In this document: one piece after another, positions 3,083 to 21,958 of the stretch | Position numbering within the stretch: position 1 is the stretch's first letter | Layout of the letters: each line of letters starts with the position of its first letter | Virus record (IMG/VR): IMGVR_UViG_3300005582_000129 | Location: 1-21,958 of that record | Origin: a virus | Length of the DNA stretch: 21,958 nt | Direction: 5' to 3' (one strand) | Program-made: the position numbers and the translations under genes | Notes under the pieces: model-generated | Told to the model about the DNA's origin: nothing | The model's input: only the letters and a program-made list of their open reading frames with translations | Database searches by the model: none

Positions 3083-5517
3083 GTCCTCCCGAGCTTGCCG
3101 GATTCAATGCCGATCTCGCGCGTGAAGTCGCCCCACAGATCGCCCGCCTGAATCCAAATCGTCGTCGGGCGTGGGTTGGCGGCCGACTTCTCGTCTGCAA
3201 CGATCTGAGCGCCGAACAACTGGAATCCGCCGCCCGCGGTGGTGCCCGAGCCGAGGATCATGTTTTCCTCCGCGCCGCCATCCTTGCCCGCAAACGCCCG
3301 CTCAATCCCCGCGGCGAACGCTTCCGCGATGGCGACGTAGAAGGCCGGATCGGTAAACGCTTGGATGAGCCCGATGATCAACTGAGGCACCGCGCCAACA
3401 AGCAACTGGATGAACATGGCGAGTAGGTCGGGCAGAATCTCGGGAATCATGCCGGCGAGGGCTACAATTACATCCGGGACGGCGCCGACCAGCGCGCCGA
3501 TCAACTTCGGGATGCCCGTCGTTACCGCGCTCAGAATGCTCGGAATCGCACGGATGAGCAATACTGGCGCCTGCGCGATGATGTCGGCCACCGCGGCGAA
3601 CGCCGACTCCACGAACGGGCCGAGGTTGGCCAGCGCGTCGGTGATGAGGTCCGCCGCCTCCGTGAACACGGATTTGCCGTTTTGCACGTTCGCGGCGCTC
3701 TGGAGGCCCGCCAGCACCGCCGCGGCAATCCCGGTAGGGTCGGCGCCGACGGCCGCCGCAAGCGGGGAGGAGAGCGCCTGCCCCACCTTGCCCGCGGTGC
3801 CGGCCGTGCTCGGCACGTTCGCCGCGGTGATGGCGGTGCCGGTCGTGTCGATTTGCGCCAGCAGGGCCTTGGCTTGGTCGGGCGTGAGCTTGCCCATCGC
3901 AAGCGCCTCAGTCACACGCGCCGACAGCTCGGCCAACTTCTCCATGTCGCTCAGGGTCTTTTGCGGCACCAACTGGTCAATCTGGTTCGCGAGGGCTTCC
4001 CACTCGCTCACCGGGGGCGGGGCGAATCGCTCGGCGTCCATCTCCGCGGCGGCCGATGCGATCCAACCGAGGGTAATCGCCTGCAAGGCCCGCGCCTGAG
4101 CCTGCAACGTCTCCACTTCCTCCTTTGCCGCCTTCCGGTGGGCCTTACTCGACTCGGTCTGCTTGTGCGTGGCGTTGGACTCGGCCGACTTCGACCGGCG
4201 CACGTCGTCCGTCGCATCGCGCATCCTGAGTTGCCCGGCAACCGCCGCCTGCAACTCCTGTTCCAACTCCTTCGTGCTCGTGCTTACGCCGTCCATCGCC
4301 GAGGACAGGAAGGCGAATAGGCCCGTGTTGACAGCGAGCCCGGAGATACCGCCGTCCACCCGGTCGATCGCGTCCGCAAGGTCGCCCATGCCGCGCGAAA
4401 CGCCACCGACGGCCTCCTCCCACGAGTCGGGTACGCCTTTCAGCTCCAGCAGCTTGACGTGCGATGCGATCAGCGCGTCGCTCTCCTTCGTGGCCTCGCG
4501 GTAGGCATCGCCGGTCGAATAGAACGTGTCCGCCGCTGCGATGGCCTCCTTGGAAGCGCCCTCCATGATGAGCTGAAGCCGCGCCGTGCTGCGCGTGGCC
4601 TCGCGGGTCAACTCCTCGGTGTGGCTTAGCCCAAGCGCGAGCGCCGCTTGTGCGGCCGCCGCCGACTCGCTCTCCGCGGTGAGGCCCTGGTACGCCATAG
4701 CGAGCCCAGCCGCGGCCACCGCCACCACAGGCAAAGCCACCGCGAGAGGCCCCAGCGCCGCCTTGATCGTGGCGCCCATCGTCGCGCCCGATTGGCTCGC
4801 TTGCGTGAACGCCTGCGCGACTTGCGGCCCCTGTTGGGCGAGGATCATCATGGGGTTCATGCCCATGGCGAGCGATTGCCCAACGTCGTACATCTGGAAG
4901 CGGAGGTTACCGGCCGCGTAGCCGGCGGCGTCCATGCCCTTTGAGCCCGCAGCCATCGAGGCCGTAAGCCTGTCCTGTTCCGCCTTCGCCTTCGCCTTCG
5001 CCGCTACGAGTTGCGAGTATTGCGAGCCGGTCAGCCCAAGGGCCTTAGCGTTCATCTCGGCCGCGGCGGTCGTCTCGCGAATCGAGGCCGCAAGTTGCCT
5101 TTCATCTGTGCTGAGCGATGCAGCGTGTGCGGCGAGTTGCGCGGCCTCCGTAGCTGCCCGCTCCTCCGCTGCCGACACCGCCGACAAGGCCGCCGCAAGT
5201 TGCGCGGCCTCCGCGGCTGCGCGCTCCTCTGACGCCGCCGCTTGCGACGTTGCAGCCTCCATCGCCCGCAACTGCGCGACCGATAGCCCAAGCGCATCGG
5301 CCTTCATCTCGACCGCAATCGTTGCCGTCCGGATCGCTTGCGCCGCGTCTCGCTCTGCGTCGGAAACGGACATCGAGGCCGCCGCCGCCGCCCTCATCTG
5401 CGCGGTTAGCTCTGCCTCTCGCTGGGCAAGCAGCGCCGCCGCACGAGCCATGCCGTCGAGCGAAGCGGAGCCGGGGGTCTGCGCCTCGACCTTGAACGAT
5501 ACCCCCGTGGTGCTCAT
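3079..5517 (-). CDS. Tape measure protein
   Basis: This is the longest gene in the window at 812 residues, in the tape-measure slot after the chaperone pair. Residues about 20-190 are Ala/Glu/Gln-rich and predicted coiled coil. They contain an internal duplication: residues about 56-88 resemble 140-172 (AEMNAKALGL against VEMKADALGL), and SEERAAAEAAQLAA near 96 resembles AEERAATEAAQLAA near 117. Residues 206-236 (FQMYDVGQSLAMGMNPMMIL, then AQQGPQ) match the conserved head of lambda-type tape measures. Hydrophobic stretches follow at about 255-275 (membrane-insertion type) and 640-740. Such proteins set tail length; at roughly 0.15 nm per residue a full-length 812-residue tape would give a tail near 120 nm, unless the protein is processed. 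The start is in an ATGA overlap with the chaperone T frame. Confidence 0.93.
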   Translation of the reverse strand: MSTTGVSFKVEAQTPGSASLDGMARAAALLAQREAELTAQMRAAAAASMSVSDAERDAAQAIRTATIAVEMKADALGLSVAQLRAMEAATSQAAASEERAAAEAAQLAAALSAVSAAEERAATEAAQLAAHAASLSTDERQLAASIRETTAAAEMNAKALGLTGSQYSQLVAAKAKAKAEQDRLTASMAAGSKGMDAAGYAAGNLRFQMYDVGQSLAMGMNPMMILAQQGPQVAQAFTQASQSGATMGATIKAALGPLAVALPVVAVAAAGLAMAYQGLTAESESAAAAQAALALGLSHTEELTREATRSTARLQLIMEGASKEAIAAADTFYSTGDAYREATKESDALIASHVKLLELKGVPDSWEEAVGGVSRGMGDLADAIDRVDGGISGLAVNTGLFAFLSSAMDGVSTSTKELEQELQAAVAGQLRMRDATDDVRRSKSAESNATHKQTESSKAHRKAAKEEVETLQAQARALQAITLGWIASAAAEMDAERFAPPPVSEWEALANQIDQLVPQKTLSDMEKLAELSARVTEALAMGKLTPDQAKALLAQIDTTGTAITAANVPSTAGTAGKVGQALSSPLAAAVGADPTGIAAAVLAGLQSAANVQNGKSVFTEAADLITDALANLGPFVESAFAAVADIIAQAPVLLIRAIPSILSAVTTGIPKLIGALVGAVPDVIVALAGMIPEILPDLLAMFIQLLVGAVPQLIIGLIQAFTDPAFYVAIAEAFAAGIERAFAGKDGGAEENMILGSGTTAGGGFQLFGAQIVADEKSAANPRPTTIWIQAGDLWGDFTREIGIESGKLGRT
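5135..5213 (-). repeat. Direct DNA repeat inside tape-measure coiled coil
   Basis: The 16-mer AGTTGCGCGGCCTCCG occurs at 5135-5150 and again at 5198-5213, 63 bases (21 codons) apart. It encodes the duplicated EAAQLAA segments of the tape measure. It indicates a recent in-frame segmental duplication that could alter tape length. Confidence 0.7.
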
Positions 5518-5741
5518 TGGCCGACCTCCACCACCGCCATAGCCTTTCCGCCGAGGCTCTGCACCGCGAGTTGCCGCCGCTCAAACCCGGCATCGTAGGC
5601 CGCGCGATTGAACGCGAAGTCCTCCGCGCTCATGTCCCGCAGCTCAGACGGTAGCACCCGATACCTCGCCGCCATCGCGTCCATCGTCGCGAGCAGCGGG
5701 ACCGGGAAAGGTGGCCAGCGTTTCGCGCCACCCGCCTCCAA
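5514..5741 (-). CDS. Tail assembly chaperone, T-like frame (frameshift extension)
   Basis: This frame is open from a TGA at 5745-5747 to the stop at 5514-5516, and overlaps the end of the upstream chaperone gene by about 100 bases. The first usable start would be TTG at 5741 or ATG at 5684; neither has a Shine-Dalgarno sequence. The segment LPSELRDMSAEDFAFNRAAY resembles the helical T region of lambda G/GT-type chaperones. The most economical reading is that it is made as a C-terminal extension of the upstream protein by ribosomal frameshifting near 5704-5706. That would give a fusion of about 196 residues (134 from the first frame and 62 from this one). Relative to the upstream frame this one is +1 (or -2), not the common -1. 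It then overlaps the tape-measure start by four bases (ATGA). Confidence 0.72.
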   Translation of the reverse strand: MEAGGAKRWPPFPVPLLATMDAMAARYRVLPSELRDMSAEDFAFNRAAYDAGFERRQLAVQSLGGKAMAVVEVGQ

Positions 5742-14524: not shown

Positions 14525-15928
14525 TCAGTACGACGCTCCCCAGTCCACCACTCCCGCGGCGAGGTTGTAGACTGCGTAGCGAGCGGCGTCGATCGCGTGG
14601 TCGTTCGCCTTCAAGGGCAGGTCGGGCGAGTCCTTCGCCCCGGTGCGCGGTGCCCAGACGTAGCCTTCGATCTCACGAACGAACGGCCGATTGGCCACCG
14701 TGTCGTGTACGACGAGATGCGGGTAGCCCTGAGCGTCGAGCGCGAGCCGCGAGGCTACCGCGTTGATGCCCGGTCGGATGTCCTTGCGCGCGGCCCGCGT
14801 GTCGATGCCGAGGTTCCGCAGCGTCATTCGCCCATTCGCTTCCTCGGGGTCGGCCCAGATCGTCTCTGGCCACCCGTACTGCTCGAACATGGCCCGCAGC
14901 TTGACCGCGTGTTCCTCCCACCGTAGCCCCGCCTGGTAGTGCGTGGCGAGGAGGTGAAGCACGTCATCGGCAGGGTCAATCGCGAACAGGCAACAGGCGA
15001 ACGGGTTGCTCGTGCCGAAGTCGATCCCCGCCACCCGGCGCCACTCGGCCGGCACGGGCGTAGCCGGCACGAGGTGAACCGCGCGGCTCCACCCGGAGTA
15101 GACCAGCCCCTCGAGCGCCACGAACTTACCCGACTCGCGCGCCGCCTTCTCGTGCTCGCCATACCTCGCCATGCGCTGCTTTCGGCCCGCTTGGTCGATG
15201 TACGGGTTGTCGCGGCCGTCGATCTCAGCGTACCGGTAGCCCGGCTTGGGCTCGCTCTGGAAGTCGTCGTAAACCCACGTCATGCCCTTTAGCGGCGTCA
15301 TGCTCAGGAGGATGTAGCAGCCCTTCCACGGGCGCCGACCGAGCCGCATCAGGCACTCGCCGAACACGGCCGAGTCGTGCTCCTCGTCCAGAATGATGAT
15401 GTCGAACTCGTCAGCCTGATACGCCCGCGCCCCCTGGTCGTTGCTCTTGAAGACGATCGTGCCGTTGTTGCCCACCGCACCCGGTGCCGAGACCTCGGCC
15501 TCACCGTCGCCCCGCTCGTTACGCCACTTGCATCCCGCCGGCAGGAGGCGCCGCACCTTCTCCCGCAGCACCTTGCGGCTGTCGTTGCTCGTGAGCGCCG
15601 AGAACAGCACGCGGCCGGGGTAGGGCGGGATGGTGTCGAGGTCGAGGCCGTTGGCGTCGAGCCATCGCCGGGCGTCAGGGTGGCGACTCCCGAGCATCGC
15701 GGCAACGGCGAACTCCGCAGCCAGCGCGCTCTTGCCCGATCCGTTCCCACCCAGCACGGCAAACGCCAGCGCCCCCTTGACCGCTCGCGCCGCTCCTCGC
15801 TGCGAGCTCGCCCGCGGTGCCGCGACATCCCACAGGCGGGAGTAAGCGATCGGAGCCTGCGCCCGCCGCTCGTGCCTGGACTTCGCCGCCCGTGCGCCGC
15901 GGAGGAGGTCAGATCGCGAGAGTGGCAC
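14525..15928 (-). CDS. terL: Terminase large subunit
   Basis: A 467-residue packaging motor and nuclease. The start is set at GTG 15928, overlapping the small terminase by 20 bases; in-frame sequence further upstream is an Arg/Ser-rich antisense-type artefact, and no ATG lies nearby. ATPase: Walker A GGNGSGKS at 60-67, Walker B DIIILDEEH at 176-184 and coupling motif LLSMTP at 207-212. Nuclease (RNase H-like): Asp303 in AGIDFGTSNPF, Asp360 in IWADPEE and Asp443/Asp447 in KANDHAIDAARYAV. All expected catalytic acidic residues are present. It cuts concatemeric DNA and pumps it through the portal. The start has little Shine-Dalgarno character, so it is probably translated by coupling to the upstream gene; the exact start is the weak point of this call. 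Confidence 0.93.
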   Translation of the reverse strand: MPLSRSDLLRGARAAKSRHERRAQAPIAYSRLWDVAAPRASSQRGAARAVKGALAFAVLGGNGSGKSALAAEFAVAAMLGSRHPDARRWLDANGLDLDTIPPYPGRVLFSALTSNDSRKVLREKVRRLLPAGCKWRNERGDGEAEVSAPGAVGNNGTIVFKSNDQGARAYQADEFDIIILDEEHDSAVFGECLMRLGRRPWKGCYILLSMTPLKGMTWVYDDFQSEPKPGYRYAEIDGRDNPYIDQAGRKQRMARYGEHEKAARESGKFVALEGLVYSGWSRAVHLVPATPVPAEWRRVAGIDFGTSNPFACCLFAIDPADDVLHLLATHYQAGLRWEEHAVKLRAMFEQYGWPETIWADPEEANGRMTLRNLGIDTRAARKDIRPGINAVASRLALDAQGYPHLVVHDTVANRPFVREIEGYVWAPRTGAKDSPDLPLKANDHAIDAARYAVYNLAAGVVDWGASY

Positions 15929-16430
15929 GAACGGCCGCCGCTGCTTCGTGGTGGCCCTGCTCGTCAAGGATGGCGATCGCCTCCTCCAGCGTGACGCGCG
16001 CCAGCTCCTCGTCGGACTTCTCCCCGAGCGTGAGCGCCCCGGTGAGCTCCTGCACCTCCGTCTTCGGCAGGCCGAAGCGATCGGCCACCGAGTCGGCGGC
16101 GCGGAGCCGGATGGCGTGGTCGGCCGGGCTGTCGAGCGCCCCGCTACAATGGGGGCACTCACCAGCGGGGCCGGCGGTAGCCTTCAAGGCATCGCGCCAC
16201 ACTCCCACCGCCGAGTTGAGCAGCCCAGCCCCTACGCGCTTGGCGCTGGTCCGCGCGTCGTTCTGGATGCGCTCTACCTCCTCCAGCACCTCGGGCGACT
16301 GAATCAGCCGCGTGACGGTGTTGCGGTGTGCGCCGATCTCCTCGGCGATCTCCACGTTCGTCGCGCCCGTGCAGAGCATCGCTGCCACGCGAACCGCGAT
16401 CAATGCCGGATCATGCACGACCACGCCCAT
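15909..16430 (-). CDS. terS: Terminase small subunit
   Basis: A 173-residue protein. ATG at 16430 is chosen because it overlaps the stop of the upstream small gene by one base (TAATG). The frame extends upstream but only in a sequence with no coding character. Residues 24-44 (TNVEIAEEIGAHRNTVTRLI) form a helix-turn-helix of the kind used by small terminases to bind the packaging site. A helical oligomerisation region follows (SPEVLEEVERIQNDARTSAK). A single CPHC knuckle at 92-95 and a C-terminal acidic helix (SDEELARVTLEEAIAILDEQ) complete it; the latter may contact the large subunit. It is encoded directly upstream of terL and 165 bases from the repeat-bearing gap it might recognise. Confidence 0.85.
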   Translation of the reverse strand: MGVVVHDPALIAVRVAAMLCTGATNVEIAEEIGAHRNTVTRLIQSPEVLEEVERIQNDARTSAKRVGAGLLNSAVGVWRDALKATAGPAGECPHCSGALDSPADHAIRLRAADSVADRFGLPKTEVQELTGALTLGEKSDEELARVTLEEAIAILDEQGHHEAAAAVRATLAI

Positions 16431-16594
16431 TACGGAGCCACCACGAGCGCGCCGAGAACGCCAACCGTCACGACCGCCACGAGCGCAGCGGCTACCCATC
16501 GCAGCCACCTCGACTCCACCACCCGCTCGACCAGGGCAAACGCAAGAATGACCACGAGGGCGGGTAGGTCGCGGGCGGGGATGTTGCCGAGCAT
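16430..16594 (-). CDS. Small two-helix membrane protein, 54 residues
   Basis: A 54-residue frame, ATG at 16594, ending in a TAA that shares its last base with the ATG of the small terminase. The product has two hydrophobic segments: PALVVILAFALVERVV (11-26), then a charged turn with ESRWLRW, then VAAALVAVVTVGVLGALVVA (34-53). The first is short and contains a Glu. A hairpin in the inner membrane is likely. No enzymatic motif is visible. Small two-helix proteins of this type can be holins or antiholins, but no lysin is adjacent, so this is only an option. The one-base junction and the GC-rich third positions support a real gene. The ribosome binding site is weak (TAGG about 9 bases upstream). 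Confidence 0.65.
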   Translation of the reverse strand: MLGNIPARDLPALVVILAFALVERVVESRWLRWVAAALVAVVTVGVLGALVVAP

Positions 16595-16639
16595 GCCGTA
16601 GCCTACCACGAGGGCGGGAAGGTGGCGACCGGCGCACGT

Positions 16640-16661
16640 CGGACAGATCGCGGACAGATCG
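16640..16661. repeat. Tandem 11-bp direct repeat CGGACAGATCG x2
   Basis: Two perfect adjacent copies (16640-16650 and 16651-16661). On the minus strand each reads CGATCTGTCCG. The left copy is extended by GT to GTCGGACAG, which recurs inverted at 16828-16836 (CTGTCCGAC). The pair lies about 45 bases upstream of the 54-residue membrane-protein gene and about 210 bases from the small-terminase start. Confidence 0.8.
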
Positions 16662-16725
16662 TACTACAGGAGATTGACGGTTTGCGGCCCATACTGACAC
16701 TTGCTACACGTTTTCTTAGTAGTCT

Positions 16726-16735
16726 CTCACGTGAG
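16726..16735. repeat. 10-bp palindrome CTCACGTGAG
   Basis: A perfect palindrome in the AT-rich core of the gap. Its centre CACGTG (16728-16733) is repeated exactly 64 bases away at 16792-16797. Palindromes of this size suit a dimeric regulator; none is encoded in view. Confidence 0.5.
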
Positions 16736-16865
16736 GAAAAAGGAAAGCGCACATCATGTATACAGATGCGACTTTCGGCCTCTGAAGTGTCCACGTGTCC
16801 GGATCGCGTTCCCATCGGCATTCTCTCCTGTCCGACATCTGCGGAACGTGTCGTAATGTGTCCGT

Positions 16866-18491
16866 TCACTCTCCGAACCCGGTCTGCCGAGCCTTGACGG
16901 TCAGGCTGATGCCTGTCCACCGCCGCCCGGTGCTTCGGTCGTTCGCCTGCTTCATGCCCTTCCGCTGGAGCTCCTGCGAGAACCACTTGTGGGAGCGAGG
17001 CCGTAGCCCGTTATCCTTGGCCCACTCGACATAGCTGGCGTAGAGCGGCGCGTTCTCTGCGCTCAGGAGCGAGTTGACCTCGCACCGCTCCTCCACGAAG
17101 TCGCCGAGCATGTCCATCTCCTGCCGGTACTTGGCGCTGGCTCCGGTCACGGCGGCGGGTGCGGCGAGGCCCTGGGCCTTCCACTCCTTGAAGCCTTCGA
17201 TCATCCAGCGCAGGATGGCGGCGTGCTCGGCTTTCAGCTTGTTGGGGAGGTCGCCGTCTACCTCGTCGTCGGGGATCGTGAAGGCGAACGGGATCAAGCG
17301 GAGCCGGCGCCAGATGCCGTTGTCGGTGCCCTTGATGGGCGGCTTGTGGTTGGTCATCATCCAGAGCTTGAACTGGGGGATGAAGTCGAAGAACTCACGA
17401 TTGAGGAAGCGCGCGGTCACGGTGTCCTGACCGGTCACGGTCTTGATCAGGCCCTCGTCAAGCGGGGCGCCCTCGTTGGGCTCGGAGCAGAGCACGAAGC
17501 GTGCGCCAGCGAGGGCGGCGAGGTCGTTGGGAATGCCCCCGGCCTTGCGGTCTACGAAGGTGGCGACCTGAGCCCCCTGGGCGTAGCTGCCGAGGATGGC
17601 CTTGAGGGTGTTGAGGAACACGCCCTTGCCGTTTCGGCCGGTGCCGTAGGCGATGAACATGCACTGCTCGGACGTATCGCCGGTCAGGGCGTAGCCGGCA
17701 GCGCGCTGGAGAAACGCGACCATCTCCACGGCTGCGGCGTTCGCGGGGTCTGCGTAGGCTGCGTCGAGGGCGGCGGTGTCCGGGGCGACCAGCGGCCCGC
17801 CCATGATGCGGAGGAGGAACGCGCGCCACGTCGGGCAGTCGGCGAGCTGGGCGGCGACGGAGGTTGACCGGGTGATCAGGTCGGCGCGGCGGTTGGGGTG
17901 ACGGCGCCCGGTGCGGAGGTTGTAGGTCTGGTCGGTGGTGTTGAGCATGAGCGGGTCGTGGTCCCATGCGTCAACGTCAACGGCGATGGACTGGCGCCCG
18001 CGGAGCACCTCGAGCATGTTTCGGATGCCGGCGGCGCTCTCGCACTTGTTCGCGTGGGCGAGGATGGCCTTCCGCATGGCGCGTGCTCGCTTCTCTTCCT
18101 CGCTGAGTACGAGGTCGGTGGAGTCGGGCGGCGCTCGCTTGCGCCACTCTTCGCCCACGATGTCGGCGAGCCGGTAGGCGGCGCGGGTGGTGTCCGGTCG
18201 CCACTTGGCGCCATCCCACAGCATCCACCCTTCGCCTGGCATGGCCCCGCACCACCGGATATCGCCGCCTGCGAGGCGCACGAGGATGCGGGCGTTGCCG
18301 AGGTCGGTCAGGCGCTCGCTATCGGTGTCGATGATGTCGGGGGCGATGTCGTGCCCGGGGTCGTCTGGGTCGTCGGGTCGCACGATCTCCAGCTCGGCGG
18401 GCTCGTGGTAGACCTCGGCGGAAAGCAGAAGCTCGGTGAGGTCTACGCCTTGCGCGTAGAGGTCGGAGATGTCGATCTTAGGGGAGGTCAT
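16866..18491 (-). CDS. D5/P4-type replicative helicase (SF3-like)
   Basis: A 541-residue protein; ATG 18491 is chosen for its ATGA overlap with the primase stop, since upstream in-frame residues are an Arg/His-rich artefact. Residues about 60-260 correspond to the D5_N-type region (GNARILVRLAGGDIRWCGAM, WMLWDGAKW). The helicase core follows: Walker A YGTGRNGKGVFL near 282-292, Walker B-like FVLCSEPNEG at 332-341, sensor motif LWMMTNHKPPI at 377-386, and the arginine-bearing GIWRRLRLIPF at 392-402. The C-terminus (about 460-520, DFVEERCEV and LYASYVEWAKDNGLRPRSHK) fits the winged-helix found at the end of this family. It probably forms a hexameric ring that unwinds the phage origin. Its primase partner is the separate gene just upstream; the AEP/TOPRIM half is not fused as in P4 alpha. 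Confidence 0.9.
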   Translation of the reverse strand: MTSPKIDISDLYAQGVDLTELLLSAEVYHEPAELEIVRPDDPDDPGHDIAPDIIDTDSERLTDLGNARILVRLAGGDIRWCGAMPGEGWMLWDGAKWRPDTTRAAYRLADIVGEEWRKRAPPDSTDLVLSEEEKRARAMRKAILAHANKCESAAGIRNMLEVLRGRQSIAVDVDAWDHDPLMLNTTDQTYNLRTGRRHPNRRADLITRSTSVAAQLADCPTWRAFLLRIMGGPLVAPDTAALDAAYADPANAAAVEMVAFLQRAAGYALTGDTSEQCMFIAYGTGRNGKGVFLNTLKAILGSYAQGAQVATFVDRKAGGIPNDLAALAGARFVLCSEPNEGAPLDEGLIKTVTGQDTVTARFLNREFFDFIPQFKLWMMTNHKPPIKGTDNGIWRRLRLIPFAFTIPDDEVDGDLPNKLKAEHAAILRWMIEGFKEWKAQGLAAPAAVTGASAKYRQEMDMLGDFVEERCEVNSLLSAENAPLYASYVEWAKDNGLRPRSHKWFSQELQRKGMKQANDRSTGRRWTGISLTVKARQTGFGE

Positions 18492-19414
18492 TTGGCTTCC
18501 GGTGGGCGGGTGCGGTGTATTTTGCGGTGTCGATAGTGGGCGGCGACCTTCGCGGCGTAGTCGTTGCCGGCGGTGTCGTTGTCGGTGGCGATGATGAGGT
18601 CGGCGGTGTCGGGCAGGGCGATGCCCGCGAAGGCTTCTGCGCCCCCGGAGGTGAGGCCGAACACGGTAACGGGCTCTCTGTATTCGGCCCAACACGATAG
18701 CGCGAGCCAATCCGTGAGCCCTTCGGCGACAACGACGAGCCCACCATCTACGGGTGTGCGGCCGTTCCAGAAGAGCAAACCTCGGGCGTCGAGGTTCTTA
18801 CCCCACACGGTCTTGATGCGTCGCCCGTTGAACTCTGGTGGCTCCACGATGGCGCGGCCGTGGAGGTTGACGGCTTGCGGCGCGGGGCCGGCGAAGGACC
18901 ACCCGCGGGTAACGAGTCGCCACGTTGCGGCCCGGCCGACTGGCCACCAGTCCGGGTAAAGCTCGCTCGCTGGGGGAGTGAATCGCGCGAGGTCGGGTGA
19001 TACATTGCGATACCCGCGGGCGATGAGGAACGGGTCGCCCGACGGGCACGGATAGCAGGCGCTCCAGAAGCTCGACACATCGGCGTATCGCGCGGGTGGA
19101 GGTGGCGCGGCTGGTCGCGGTGGCGGGGCCTCGCCGCACCAATCGCGCACGGCTCGGCGCCCATCGTCGCTGGCATCGCGGAGCCGGTGCCCGGTGAGTG
19201 CATAGCTCAGGTAGTCCAGGCCGTCGCCCATGGCGGGGCATTTGTAGCACTTCCAGCCGCCGCCGGGGCCGACGACGACAGCGCCGCGGCGGCCGTCCCG
19301 GTGCGGCTCGTTGCAGGCGGGGCACGGGTAGCCGCGGCGAGGGTCGCCCTCATAGCCGAGCCCGGCGGCCACCTCGGCGACGGTGCGGCGTTGCCGGTCG
19401 ATCCACCCGCTCAC
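18488..19414 (-). CDS. DNA primase with zinc finger and TOPRIM domain
   Basis: A 308-residue protein. I take the GTG at 19414 as start because it overlaps the helicase stop as GTGA; an ATG at 19510 would intrude about 100 bases into that gene with atypical sequence. The zinc-binding part has CPAC at 31-34 and CYKC at 56-59, with RDGRRGAVVV between them, as in CHC2-type primase fingers. A Pro-rich linker (about 95-108) follows. The TOPRIM domain is marked by the conserved Glu231 in VVVAEGLTDWLALSCW and the acidic DNDTAG at 278-283. Such phage primases lay down RNA primers at the fork. It sits between two helicases, and together with the downstream D5-type helicase it resembles a split gp4-like primase-helicase. 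Confidence 0.87.
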   Translation of the reverse strand: MSGWIDRQRRTVAEVAAGLGYEGDPRRGYPCPACNEPHRDGRRGAVVVGPGGGWKCYKCPAMGDGLDYLSYALTGHRLRDASDDGRRAVRDWCGEAPPPRPAAPPPPARYADVSSFWSACYPCPSGDPFLIARGYRNVSPDLARFTPPASELYPDWWPVGRAATWRLVTRGWSFAGPAPQAVNLHGRAIVEPPEFNGRRIKTVWGKNLDARGLLFWNGRTPVDGGLVVVAEGLTDWLALSCWAEYREPVTVFGLTSGGAEAFAGIALPDTADLIIATDNDTAGNDYAAKVAAHYRHRKIHRTRPPEAK

Positions 19415-21270
19415 GACCGCGCCCTGTTGATCTGCGCCTGAAAGCCCTTGGCTTCGAGCAGGAACGACGCCTCGCCGAAGGAAAGCCCATCGGGCGGCTT
19501 GATCTTCCACTTCACGAGAGCGGCAATCATCTTCTCGGTTGGTGTGTCGGCCATGCGTCGTTTGTCGAGCTTGCCCGGCTTGAAGTGTTGCCGGGTAGCG
19601 GCTTCACATTCATCGAACGGGCCGACGGCGATACATTCGACTTCGATCTCACGACGTATCCACGCTTCCCACACGTCGCCCGCCTCGCGGAGCATGGCCG
19701 ACTCACCGAACCGCTCGCCCTTGGCGACCATGATCCGGCGGTTGTTGATCGTCGTCTCGAACCACCCTGCGCGCGTGGTGCCGCGCTCGGCCTCGCCGAA
19801 CAGGGAGATCGAGAACTCGCGCATCCCTCGCACGCCGACGCCCATTGATACCTGCTCTGGCTCGTTTGGCTTTCGGGGTGGCTTGACCATCACGAGGTCA
19901 CGGCAGCGCCACCAGCGCGACGACTCGAACAAGTCAGGGTCGGAGGCGAGCGCGAGCGCCCGCGTTTCGAGTTGCTTGTCGGTCGTCTCTTCGAGGTCGA
20001 GCGAGTCAGGAGCGCCGCGCCAGAGCACGCGCGCATCGCCCTGGTTGTCTCGGTCGGCATAGTTGCGCACCTCGGTCACGAGGCCGCGAGAGAGTGCCGC
20101 GTGTTGCCGGTGTCTCACCTCGGCGCCGACTTCGATACGCGGTCCCGGCTCGGTCGGCTTGGTGAGGTCCACGAGTGACGCAAGGTCATGCGTCGAGGAG
20201 TTGGCCACGAAGTCGAGGATCACGCCCTCCACCTTGCCGGTGCGCGGGCTGTTGCGGGTGACGCGCCCTACCTGCTGCGCGTAGAGCCCTCGGCTATGTG
20301 TCGGTCGCAAGAGCATCACGATCTCGGTCGGCGGGTGGTCGAAGCCTTCTGATAGGAGGTTGTTGTTGCAGAGCACGGCGATCTGACCGGCCTTGAACGA
20401 TTCGATCTTGCGGGTGCGTTCCTTGTCGGTGCCCCACACGGCCTCCGCGGTGACGCCGACGGCTTGCAACTCGGCGGCGAGGTGTCGCGCGTGGTCGATC
20501 GTGACGGTGAAGGCGAGCGCCTGCTTTCCCCTGCCGTGCTCCAGGTACTTCGCCGCGGCGGCGCGGTTCCGCGGCTCGGTGTCGATCATCTTCGCCAGCT
20601 CGTCCTCGTCGGCCGGGTCCACGCCGCTCAGGTCGAGGTCTGTTTCGATGGTCACGCCGCGGATAGGGCAGAGGGCTCCATCTTCGATCGCCTGCTTCAA
20701 GCTGTATTCGTAGGCGAGGAAGCTCACGACATCGCCGAGCCCTTCCGTGCGCCCGCCGCCCGCGTTGCGGTAGGGCGTGGCCGTAAAGAGGATGTGCTTC
20801 CACTTCGGGTTTAGGGCCTCGGCCCGCTTGTAGATGGCCTGATACGACTTCGCGGGGGCGTGGTGGGCCTCGTCAGTAAATACGAAGTCGAACGCCGGCA
20901 ACGTGTCGAGCCGCTTGCCGCGGAGGGTCTGGACGGAGGCGAACACGCATTGCCGGTCGATCTCGTTGACCGAACCCTTTACCTTGCCGGCGTGGAGGGC
21001 GGGTTCGATCTCGCGCGCCCGCTGCATCACGTCGTCAATGAGCTCGTCGCGGTGGACCAGGAAGAGGCACCGCTTGCCCGCTCGCGCGGCCTTGACCGTG
21101 AGCGAGGCGATCAGGGTGCCTTTCCCGGTGCCGGTGGCCGCGGAGATCAACACGGCTTGCTCTTTGGGCAGGTGCTCGCGGATCGCCATCATCGCTTCGG
21201 TCTGCCACTTGCGGGGCACGGCGCCGGGGGCGAGGGGCACCAGGGACGTATCGGCGGTGTTCATTCGCAT
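19411..21270 (-). CDS. DEAD/DEAH-box superfamily 2 helicase with C-terminal extension
   Basis: A 619-residue protein from ATG 21270; a second ATG at 21264 lies in an ATGA overlap with the nuclease stop and may be the true start (617 residues). SF2 motifs are complete: RKWQTEAM near 20, motif I SAATGTGKG at 43-51, FLVHRDELIDD (Ia), motif II TDEAHH at 132-137, motif III TATP at 163-166, motif V LLSEGFDHP near 305 and motif VI QQVGRVTRN at 332-340. This pattern is that of RecG/UvsW/ResIII-like DNA translocases of many phages, probably used in fork remodelling or recombination. Residues ~380-619 are a further ~240-residue region without motifs I recognise (KKxPRKPNEPEQ-like basic stretch, many Trp and Glu). 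It lies between nuclease and primase. Confidence 0.9.
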   Translation of the reverse strand: MRMNTADTSLVPLAPGAVPRKWQTEAMMAIREHLPKEQAVLISAATGTGKGTLIASLTVKAARAGKRCLFLVHRDELIDDVMQRAREIEPALHAGKVKGSVNEIDRQCVFASVQTLRGKRLDTLPAFDFVFTDEAHHAPAKSYQAIYKRAEALNPKWKHILFTATPYRNAGGGRTEGLGDVVSFLAYEYSLKQAIEDGALCPIRGVTIETDLDLSGVDPADEDELAKMIDTEPRNRAAAAKYLEHGRGKQALAFTVTIDHARHLAAELQAVGVTAEAVWGTDKERTRKIESFKAGQIAVLCNNNLLSEGFDHPPTEIVMLLRPTHSRGLYAQQVGRVTRNSPRTGKVEGVILDFVANSSTHDLASLVDLTKPTEPGPRIEVGAEVRHRQHAALSRGLVTEVRNYADRDNQGDARVLWRGAPDSLDLEETTDKQLETRALALASDPDLFESSRWWRCRDLVMVKPPRKPNEPEQVSMGVGVRGMREFSISLFGEAERGTTRAGWFETTINNRRIMVAKGERFGESAMLREAGDVWEAWIRREIEVECIAVGPFDECEAATRQHFKPGKLDKRRMADTPTEKMIAALVKWKIKPPDGLSFGEASFLLEAKGFQAQINRARS

Positions 21271-21686
21271 ACCGTCACCGTCCAGTTACCGCCGAGCGTT
21301 TCTACGCCATCGGCGAGTGTGAGCGATGCCGGGTGGCCGGTGGTGTACCAGCGCCTCCACCGGTCGCGGAAGGTCGCCCACCACACGACGGCATCGCCCT
21401 CGGCGGTTCGCATGTAGATGAACGAGCGCCCGCCGGCCCGGTCGAACGAATCGAAGGCGGCGGCTTGGTGCGGCTTCAGTAGCGCGACGGGCCACGCATG
21501 GAGGCGGGTTGACTTCGCGTCGAAGAGCAGGGCGCGCCCATGCCCAACGGCGATGTAGTCGGGCGGTCCCTTGGTGCGCTTGTCCTTGGGGTGGTTGCGC
21601 TGGACGTACCAGCCCACGATGCCGTGGTGGAAGGTGTCGAGGTCACGTTCGAGGGCTGCGCCCGCGAGTTGTTGTTCTTTGCCCAT
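21261..21686 (-). CDS. RecU-like Holliday junction resolvase / PD-(D/E)xK nuclease
   Basis: A 141-residue protein with GGAG seven bases before ATG. The central segment reads GPPDYIAVGHGRALLFDAKS (residues 40-59), which is the RecU pattern 'PDf..-.G..i.fEaKsT' with Asp43, Asp56 and Lys58 as the likely metal-binding and catalytic residues; the usual EAK is DAK here. LKPHQAAAFDSFDRAGGRSF at 70-89 matches the conserved HQ helix and following strand. RecU cleaves four-way junctions; in phages such enzymes help resolve recombination or replication intermediates before packaging. It overlaps the helicase start, which suggests the two work together. It is shorter than B. subtilis RecU (about 200 residues) and lacks the N-terminal stalk, so archaeal-Hjc-type or VRR-like variants are possible. 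Confidence 0.77.
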   Translation of the reverse strand: MGKEQQLAGAALERDLDTFHHGIVGWYVQRNHPKDKRTKGPPDYIAVGHGRALLFDAKSTRLHAWPVALLKPHQAAAFDSFDRAGGRSFIYMRTAEGDAVVWWATFRDRWRRWYTTGHPASLTLADGVETLGGNWTVTVCE

Positions 21687-21744
21687 TGCCGCTCCGCGGG
21701 AAGGGTTGATGTCTGGTCAGGCTATCACGGATTCGGGCGGCGGG

Positions 21745-21948
21745 TCACGGCTTCACCTCCTCCCGCAGCTTCTGCATGAGGTGCGATTCCGGGTTGAGGA
21801 GCAGGTACGCGAGCCACGCGAACGCAGCTTCGCGCCCGTCGTTGTAGTAGCCGCCGTTCGCATCGCCGCTGGCGTGCATCCCACGCGCGGCGCTGGCGGC
21901 GTGCTTGGCGAGGTCGGAGAGCTCGCGGGCGAGGTGGGCGGGGTTCAT
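21745..21948 (-). CDS. Small unknown protein, 67 residues
   Basis: A 67-residue frame with a strong GGGAGGTG ribosome binding site four bases before the ATG. The sequence is helical and Ala-rich (ARELSDLAKHAASAARGMHA), with a central NGGYYNDGREAAFAWLAYLL, and ends KLREEVKP. No signal peptide, no clear membrane segment and no family I know. It precedes the nuclease by 58 bases, a space in which I see no promoter. The good ribosome site is the main evidence that it is translated. Confidence 0.6.
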   Translation of the reverse strand: MNPAHLARELSDLAKHAASAARGMHASGDANGGYYNDGREAAFAWLAYLLLNPESHLMQKLREEVKP

Positions 21949-21958
21949 GGCACCTCCC

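Follow-up and report, generated by a model that had tools for sequence, protein, structure and literature searches.

The window analysed here, an IMG/VR virus record of 21,958 nucleotides, exhibits between its replication genes and its late genes a gap that is very probably the iteron-type replication origin of a tailed phage, the boxes of which would be read by the winged helix of the adjacently encoded D5 helicase. The sequence argues for this reading through a family of short boxes, their layout, their place after the helicase gene, their linkage with the helicase and its winged helix, an AT-rich core, and the exchange of the whole as a module. An earlier note on this DNA had proposed three roles for the gap, namely origin, packaging site and late control region. 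The origin role is strongly supported, since loci with related D5 helicases keep the boxes in the same arrangement. The packaging role found no support, and for the role in late control neither a sigma-70-like promoter nor a terminator was found.

On the minus strand, the genes around the gap are, in order, a DEAD/ResIII helicase (19411-21270), a Toprim-domain protein that is likely a primase and forms a separate ORF (18488-19510), the D5/SF3-type helicase (16866-18710, start-codon end provisional), the gap, a small hydrophobic ORF of 54 aa that is the first of the late module (16430-16594), a small terminase-like protein with a helix-turn-helix (15909-16430), the large terminase (14525-16162) and the portal, with a tape measure gene further on. 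The D5 helicase, our proposed origin-binding initiator, contains D5_N, DUF5906 and Pox_D5 domains and is thus a D5-family SF3 helicase, the type of replication protein that marks the rep-ori modules of PICI/SaPI elements. It exhibits a sequence match to the SaPI5 primase-helicase (PDB 7ola, E-value = 1.3e-4), and its structural model aligns with AsfvPrimPol and MPXV E5. The proposed reader of the boxes is its predicted C-terminal winged-helix domain (Pox_D5; 16866-17117, minus strand).

Six TGTCC/GGACA pentamers had been reported in the gap (GGACA at 16641 and 16652; TGTCC at 16788, 16796, 16829 and 16859), five of the six being extended to TGTCCG/CGGACA. All these coordinates hold. So do the perfect 11-bp tandem repeat CGGACAGATCG (16640-16661), the pair of CACGTG sites (16728 and 16792, the first within the palindrome CTCACGTGAG), which are the sole two copies in the whole window, and the low G+C content of the core (46.5% for 16662-16790 versus about 67% for the window). 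The list of six boxes was correct as far as it went, with two further good boxes overlooked (TGTCG at 16849-16853 and TGACA at 16695-16699). Within the span then given to the gap (16595-16865), the repeat region proper is 16641-16863, and 16595-16606 is already the start of the late module. The excess of boxes is real: there are six copies in 224 bp, whereas 5000 dinucleotide shuffles of that stretch gave 0.58 on average and 4 at most (P ~2e-4), and any 225-bp stretch elsewhere in the window has at most three. By itself the count is only moderately strong, because 43 pentamers, the top ones mostly composed of G and C only, reach the same number in one 225-bp stretch or another of a window so rich in G+C. 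General k-mer enrichment in the gap is modest (P ~0.01) and would not decide the matter by itself. It is conservation, not the raw count, that settles whether the boxes matter.

We trained a matrix on 106 boxes, taken from 14 loci whose helicases are related D5 (SF3) proteins, leaving the window out, and scanned both strands of the window with it. Of about 43,900 positions, the seven with the highest scores lie inside the gap, the training boxes having been picked with a fixed GGACA core, which favours the core word but not the location; the eighth box (158 nt past the helicase stop) is weak. The strength of this result depends on the training set: six leading sites are still in the gap when the closest relative (L036) is removed, and five when the matrix is trained on L089-L099 alone, but just two when it is trained on L037 and L044 alone. 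The relatives were selected by helicase homology, and shared ancestry accounts for part of the association between boxes and helicase.

The predicted origin (16641-16863), delineated by the matrix and the relatives, consists of two inverted sets of GGACA-type boxes around an AT-rich core. The left arm (16788-16863) carries its boxes on the minus strand. Its outer pair is made of a GGACA (box 1, 16859-16863), which begins at the third base past the D5 stop, as expected of a PICI/SaPI-like origin lying immediately 3' of the helicase gene, and of the variant CGACA (box 2, 16849-16853); its inner pair is made of two GGACA boxes 8 bp apart (box 3, 16796-16800; box 4, 16788-16792). An extra GGACA on the same strand (16829-16833), weaker in the scan (rank 17), is not part of the canonical layout. 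The right arm (16641-16708) has its boxes on the plus strand. Its expected inner position is occupied by a degenerate CTACA with a weak score (box 5, 16704-16708), 9 bp from the variant TGACA (box 6, 16695-16699), and its outer pair comprises two GGACA boxes 11 bp apart (box 7, 16652-16656; box 8, 16641-16645). The core separating the arms (16709-16787) is the proposed melting site, and the arms flank the 80 bp of the window with the highest AT content (16695-16774, 57.5% AT; the best value outside the gap is 47.5%).

The same arrangement is found in relatives. Counted from the helicase stop, the boxes start at 3, 13, 66, 74 / 158, 167, 210, 221 in the window and at 2, 14, 57, 66 / 156, 165, 208, 220 in L089. 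In six loci (L089, L092, L095, L096, L097 and L099) the helicase stop is followed within a few bases by two forward pairs, the boxes of which are spaced about 12 and 8-9 apart; beyond an AT-rich stretch come two inverted pairs, with spacings of 8-9 and about 12. In L097 and L099 three of the four forward boxes are exact GGACA. The earlier note had asked whether relatives keep the boxes and not the spacer, and beside related D5 helicases this is the case. Variation occurs among the relatives: in L036, other small ORFs come between the helicase stop and the boxes, which are about 1.3-1.6 kb beyond it and less strongly clustered (P 0.013), and L094 has GACGC/GCGTC words at several box positions instead. 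No GGACA cluster was found in the cultured Microbacterium/Curtobacterium phages Quenya, Eden and Buldak, in which the match to the primase/helicase gene is only partial, and no repeats in L038 (30% identical). A first alignment-based scan for relatives, using two N-terminal peptide patterns, returned known loci only.

From this layout we infer binding, stoichiometry, melting, loading and bidirectional forks as follows. The D5/SF3 helicase, encoded immediately upstream, would bind the GGACA-type iterons via its C-terminal Pox_D5/RFX-like winged helix, with one helicase oligomer seated on each set of about four boxes (two pairs). With the two sets facing each other across the AT-rich core, the core would melt and two helicases would load, which would then unwind in opposite directions, priming being provided by the separately encoded Toprim primase.

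The comparison of contigs separates the boxes from the packaging genes. The contig L001, which is independent of the window, shares 99% identity with it over the terminase and tail genes, beginning at about 16606, and 94.5% at about 21732-21949. Between these matching flanks it carries a different replication cassette with a VapE-type helicase. The corresponding exchangeable cassette of the window (16607-21731) comprises the DEAD/ResIII helicase, the Toprim primase, the D5 helicase and the predicted origin. The L001 gap has no GGACA cluster; it has instead GCGCACA/TGTGCGC repeats, in a number reached in 0 of 200 shuffles. More generally, four contigs (L001, L003, L004 and L010) match the TerS and TerL of the window (56-100%) but not its D5 helicase, and a scan with the relatives' matrix finds no box cluster in any of them. 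Six loci (L036, L037, L044, L090, L097 and L176) match the D5 helicase (42-67%) but not TerS, and the boxes are present; among their TerL sequences only that of L176 matches the window, weakly (22%). In L037, its own terminase genes lie about 2.3-2.5 kb from the box cluster. Therefore the boxes follow the helicase, not the packaging genes.

Two further features of this exchange were observed. A near-perfect 19-bp direct repeat (ACCACGAGGGCGGG[T/A]AGGT; window positions 16551-16569 and 16605-16623) is found where the L001 homology begins, and is possibly the trace of the recombination that swapped the cassette. In L001 (positions 5100-5545), after the VapE helicase, TGTGCGCC/GGCGCACA words are repeated around an AT-rich stretch, and the alternative cassette likely has its origin there. 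A search with the VapE helicase of L001 returned no contig other than L001.

The gap may be an origin and yet be read by another protein of the cassette, such as the Toprim primase, the DEAD helicase or an unseen factor that recruits the D5 helicase. The exchange between the window and L001 took the whole cassette and so cannot tell its proteins apart. We nevertheless consider another reader unlikely, given the association of the repeat word with the D5 winged helix across families. Among 89 distinct D5 loci, 27 exhibit a repeated word directly downstream (P < 0.01), and in most positive loci the repeats come directly after the D5 gene. The words vary with the D5 lineage (GGACA, CCGTCA, AGGGCA, GGTGTA, AGTGCA, AAGGGT, AGTGGC and others). 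Loci whose helicase has a C-terminal P[RK][SA][HQ][KR]W helix contain on average 7.2 GGACA in 350 bp versus 0.75 elsewhere (permutation p 5e-5, uncorrected for relatedness). Downstream of the D5 gene of a large clade (most of L110-L166), no repeat cluster is detectable, and the origins of this clade must be elsewhere or marked by another signal. Its D5 helicases have a different C-terminal region (FFPGVL...).

The Listeria prophages provide clearer evidence on the reader: their repeat word changes with just the last ~25 D5 codons. Compared in 70-bp blocks, L062 and L070 show about 94-100% identity across the aligned D5 gene; the value falls to about 50-70% over its last ~80 bases and the repeats and is back at 93-100% a few hundred bases beyond. 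Their wings differ (KRSKKGYKYTG in L062 versus KKSNSKRNYVG in L070) and so do their repeats (seven GGTGTA versus eight AGGGCA). A third wing, in L084, comes with eight AGTGCA. L067, which has the wing of L062 and a different upstream part of the domain, carries the L062 repeats. Thus each wing type has one repeat word in these prophages. Among L062, L067, L070, L084 and L056, genomes that are nearly identical elsewhere, one short segment is swapped as a unit: it comprises the end of the D5 (P4-family primase/helicase) gene, about 25 codons, together with the repeats that follow.

Pox_D5 is the family matched by the C-terminal domain of the D5 helicase; the Listeria homologue of this domain hits RFX_DNA_binding as well, just under the family cut-off. 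The domain of the window is predicted to be a winged helix, of which the best fold match is a DNA-bound RFX domain (E-value = 2e-3, a weak match), followed lower down by archaeal Orc1/Cdc6 and the P4 origin-binding domain (PDB 1ka8, E-value = 0.48, also weak). RFX proteins contact the major groove mainly via the wing, which fits the wing exchange seen in the Listeria prophages. We give about even chances to a more general rule, by which the swappable unit in tailed-phage D5 origins would be the C-terminal winged helix, largely its wing, together with the iterons just downstream. Recombination would exchange this unit so that origin and reader stay matched, and the wing-iteron pairs would amount to a natural recognition code for RFX-like winged helices. 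No report of such pairs in Listeria phages was found in the literature searched, mostly papers available without subscription.

Alternatively, the boxes could be operators for a regulator of the late or the helicase operon. The gap does lie between replication and late genes, and a -10-like TAGGCT (16600-16605, minus strand), a candidate late promoter, is found 5 nt ahead of the ATG of the first late ORF. This hexamer follows closely after the boxes and is not part of their cluster. The region yielded neither a sigma-70-like promoter nor a terminator, the boxes vary with the C-terminal domain of the helicase and not with the following genes, and the matrix reveals no second cluster elsewhere in the 21,958-base window, which is possibly a fragment. 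Transcription control by the boxes is thus very unlikely. As to the hexamer itself, the pattern of TANNNT, exactly 5 nt and the ATG of the first late ORF recurs in the window, L001, L003 and L004 (TAGGCT, TAGGCT, TACGGT and TACAGT, respectively), and may represent a leaderless late promoter.

That the boxes form a cos or pac site, bound by the small terminase and with the DNA cut there, is highly improbable, even though the gap lies just upstream of the small terminase gene and the relatives do have a cos-like terminus between origin and TerS. Repeats of a cos or pac site should be conserved with the terminase genes. The boxes are absent from L001, the late genes of which, terminase included, are nearly the same as those of the window, and from L003, L004 and L010 with their related terminases; they are present in the six D5 loci, with no detectable match to the small terminase of the window and no clearly related terminase. 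Moreover, the apparent DNA end of the relatives is a different sequence, which lies about 220-450 bp beyond the closest box where an array is present. D5 relatives contain a conserved GTGTATACYGACSGNNNCCCCC between origin and small terminase. Seven of the 13 contigs with GTGTATACYGACSGNNNCCCCC end 16-18 nt beyond it (L167, L168, L170, L173, L174, L177 and L178), six of these seven stopping at GACCCCGTATGGTT or GACCCCGTTAGGCT; the other six (L169, L171, L172, L175, L176 and L179) continue through it. These contig ends, indirect as evidence, suggest a physical, cos-type end to a genome of about 30 kb. They are outside the box array, so the packaging end of the relatives would be near the origin but distinct from it. 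L171, L174, L175 and L177 keep the end sequence with no recognisable GGACA array. No GTGTATACYGACSGNNNCCCCC-type sequence was found in the window.

A chimeric assembly of the window or of L001 is conceivable; for the window, a box layout common to independent contigs argues against this. Dispersed repressor sites resembling stoperators were rejected, because the best matrix sites are all confined to one gap.

The predicted origin, with its D5 helicase, matches a known kind in helicase type, position and architecture. In SaPI/PICI modules the origin lies immediately 3' of the gene for a D5-family helicase, the C-terminal domain of which is reported to recognise it (PMC6092414, PMC7581432). The pri-rep-ori modules of SaPI5 (Rep, PDB 7ola) and of E. 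coli PICIs thus share with the window a D5-family helicase and a 3' origin. Unlike these satellites, the window encodes virion proteins (large terminase, portal and tape measure) and belongs to a tailed phage; its module would work as in a PICI, but the element is not one. Its iteron is GGACA, its arms are clearly inverted, its boxes are paired at 8-12 bp, and its primase domain is a separate ORF. The SCCmec helicase Cch2 uses its C-terminal domain to bind iterons of 5 nt, which directly follow the gene that encodes it (PMC7581432); unlike the window, the putative origin of this different mobile element has only three direct AAGTG iterons. In P4, the C-terminal winged-helix origin-binding domain of the alpha protein binds repeats (PMC4234260), and the model of the window D5 helicase resembles that domain (PDB 1ka8), weakly by E-value. 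However, P4 alpha unites primase, helicase and origin binding in one chain, whereas the Toprim protein of the window is encoded apart. P4 also needs a second site, crr, whereas the 22-kb window record, possibly a fragment, has no second cluster. The Listeria PSA/B025-type prophages, with an annotated P4-family primase and eight repeats directly downstream in several variants, differ from the window in using other words (AGGGCA, GGTGTA, AGTGCA) with other wings.

The SaPI/PICI organisation has been stated to be shared by none of the other bacterial replicons known (PMC6092414). If the origin is confirmed, this statement would need amending: tailed phages from several lineages show a very similar organisation here. 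Few metagenomic phages have a known origin; here one can be predicted from sequence since relatives keep both box and spacing. Because wing and repeat word change together, the rule by which these D5 helicases read DNA can be put to a direct test, and the co-change bears on the separation of phage and satellite replication systems.

Finally, apparent inteins were observed in the large terminases of two relatives (L006:3-617 and L009:801-1919), with Pfam Intein_splicing matches below the curated cut-off. One is inserted inside the Walker A motif (GGNG^C...HN^SGKS) and the other at KANDHA^C...HN^CDAA.
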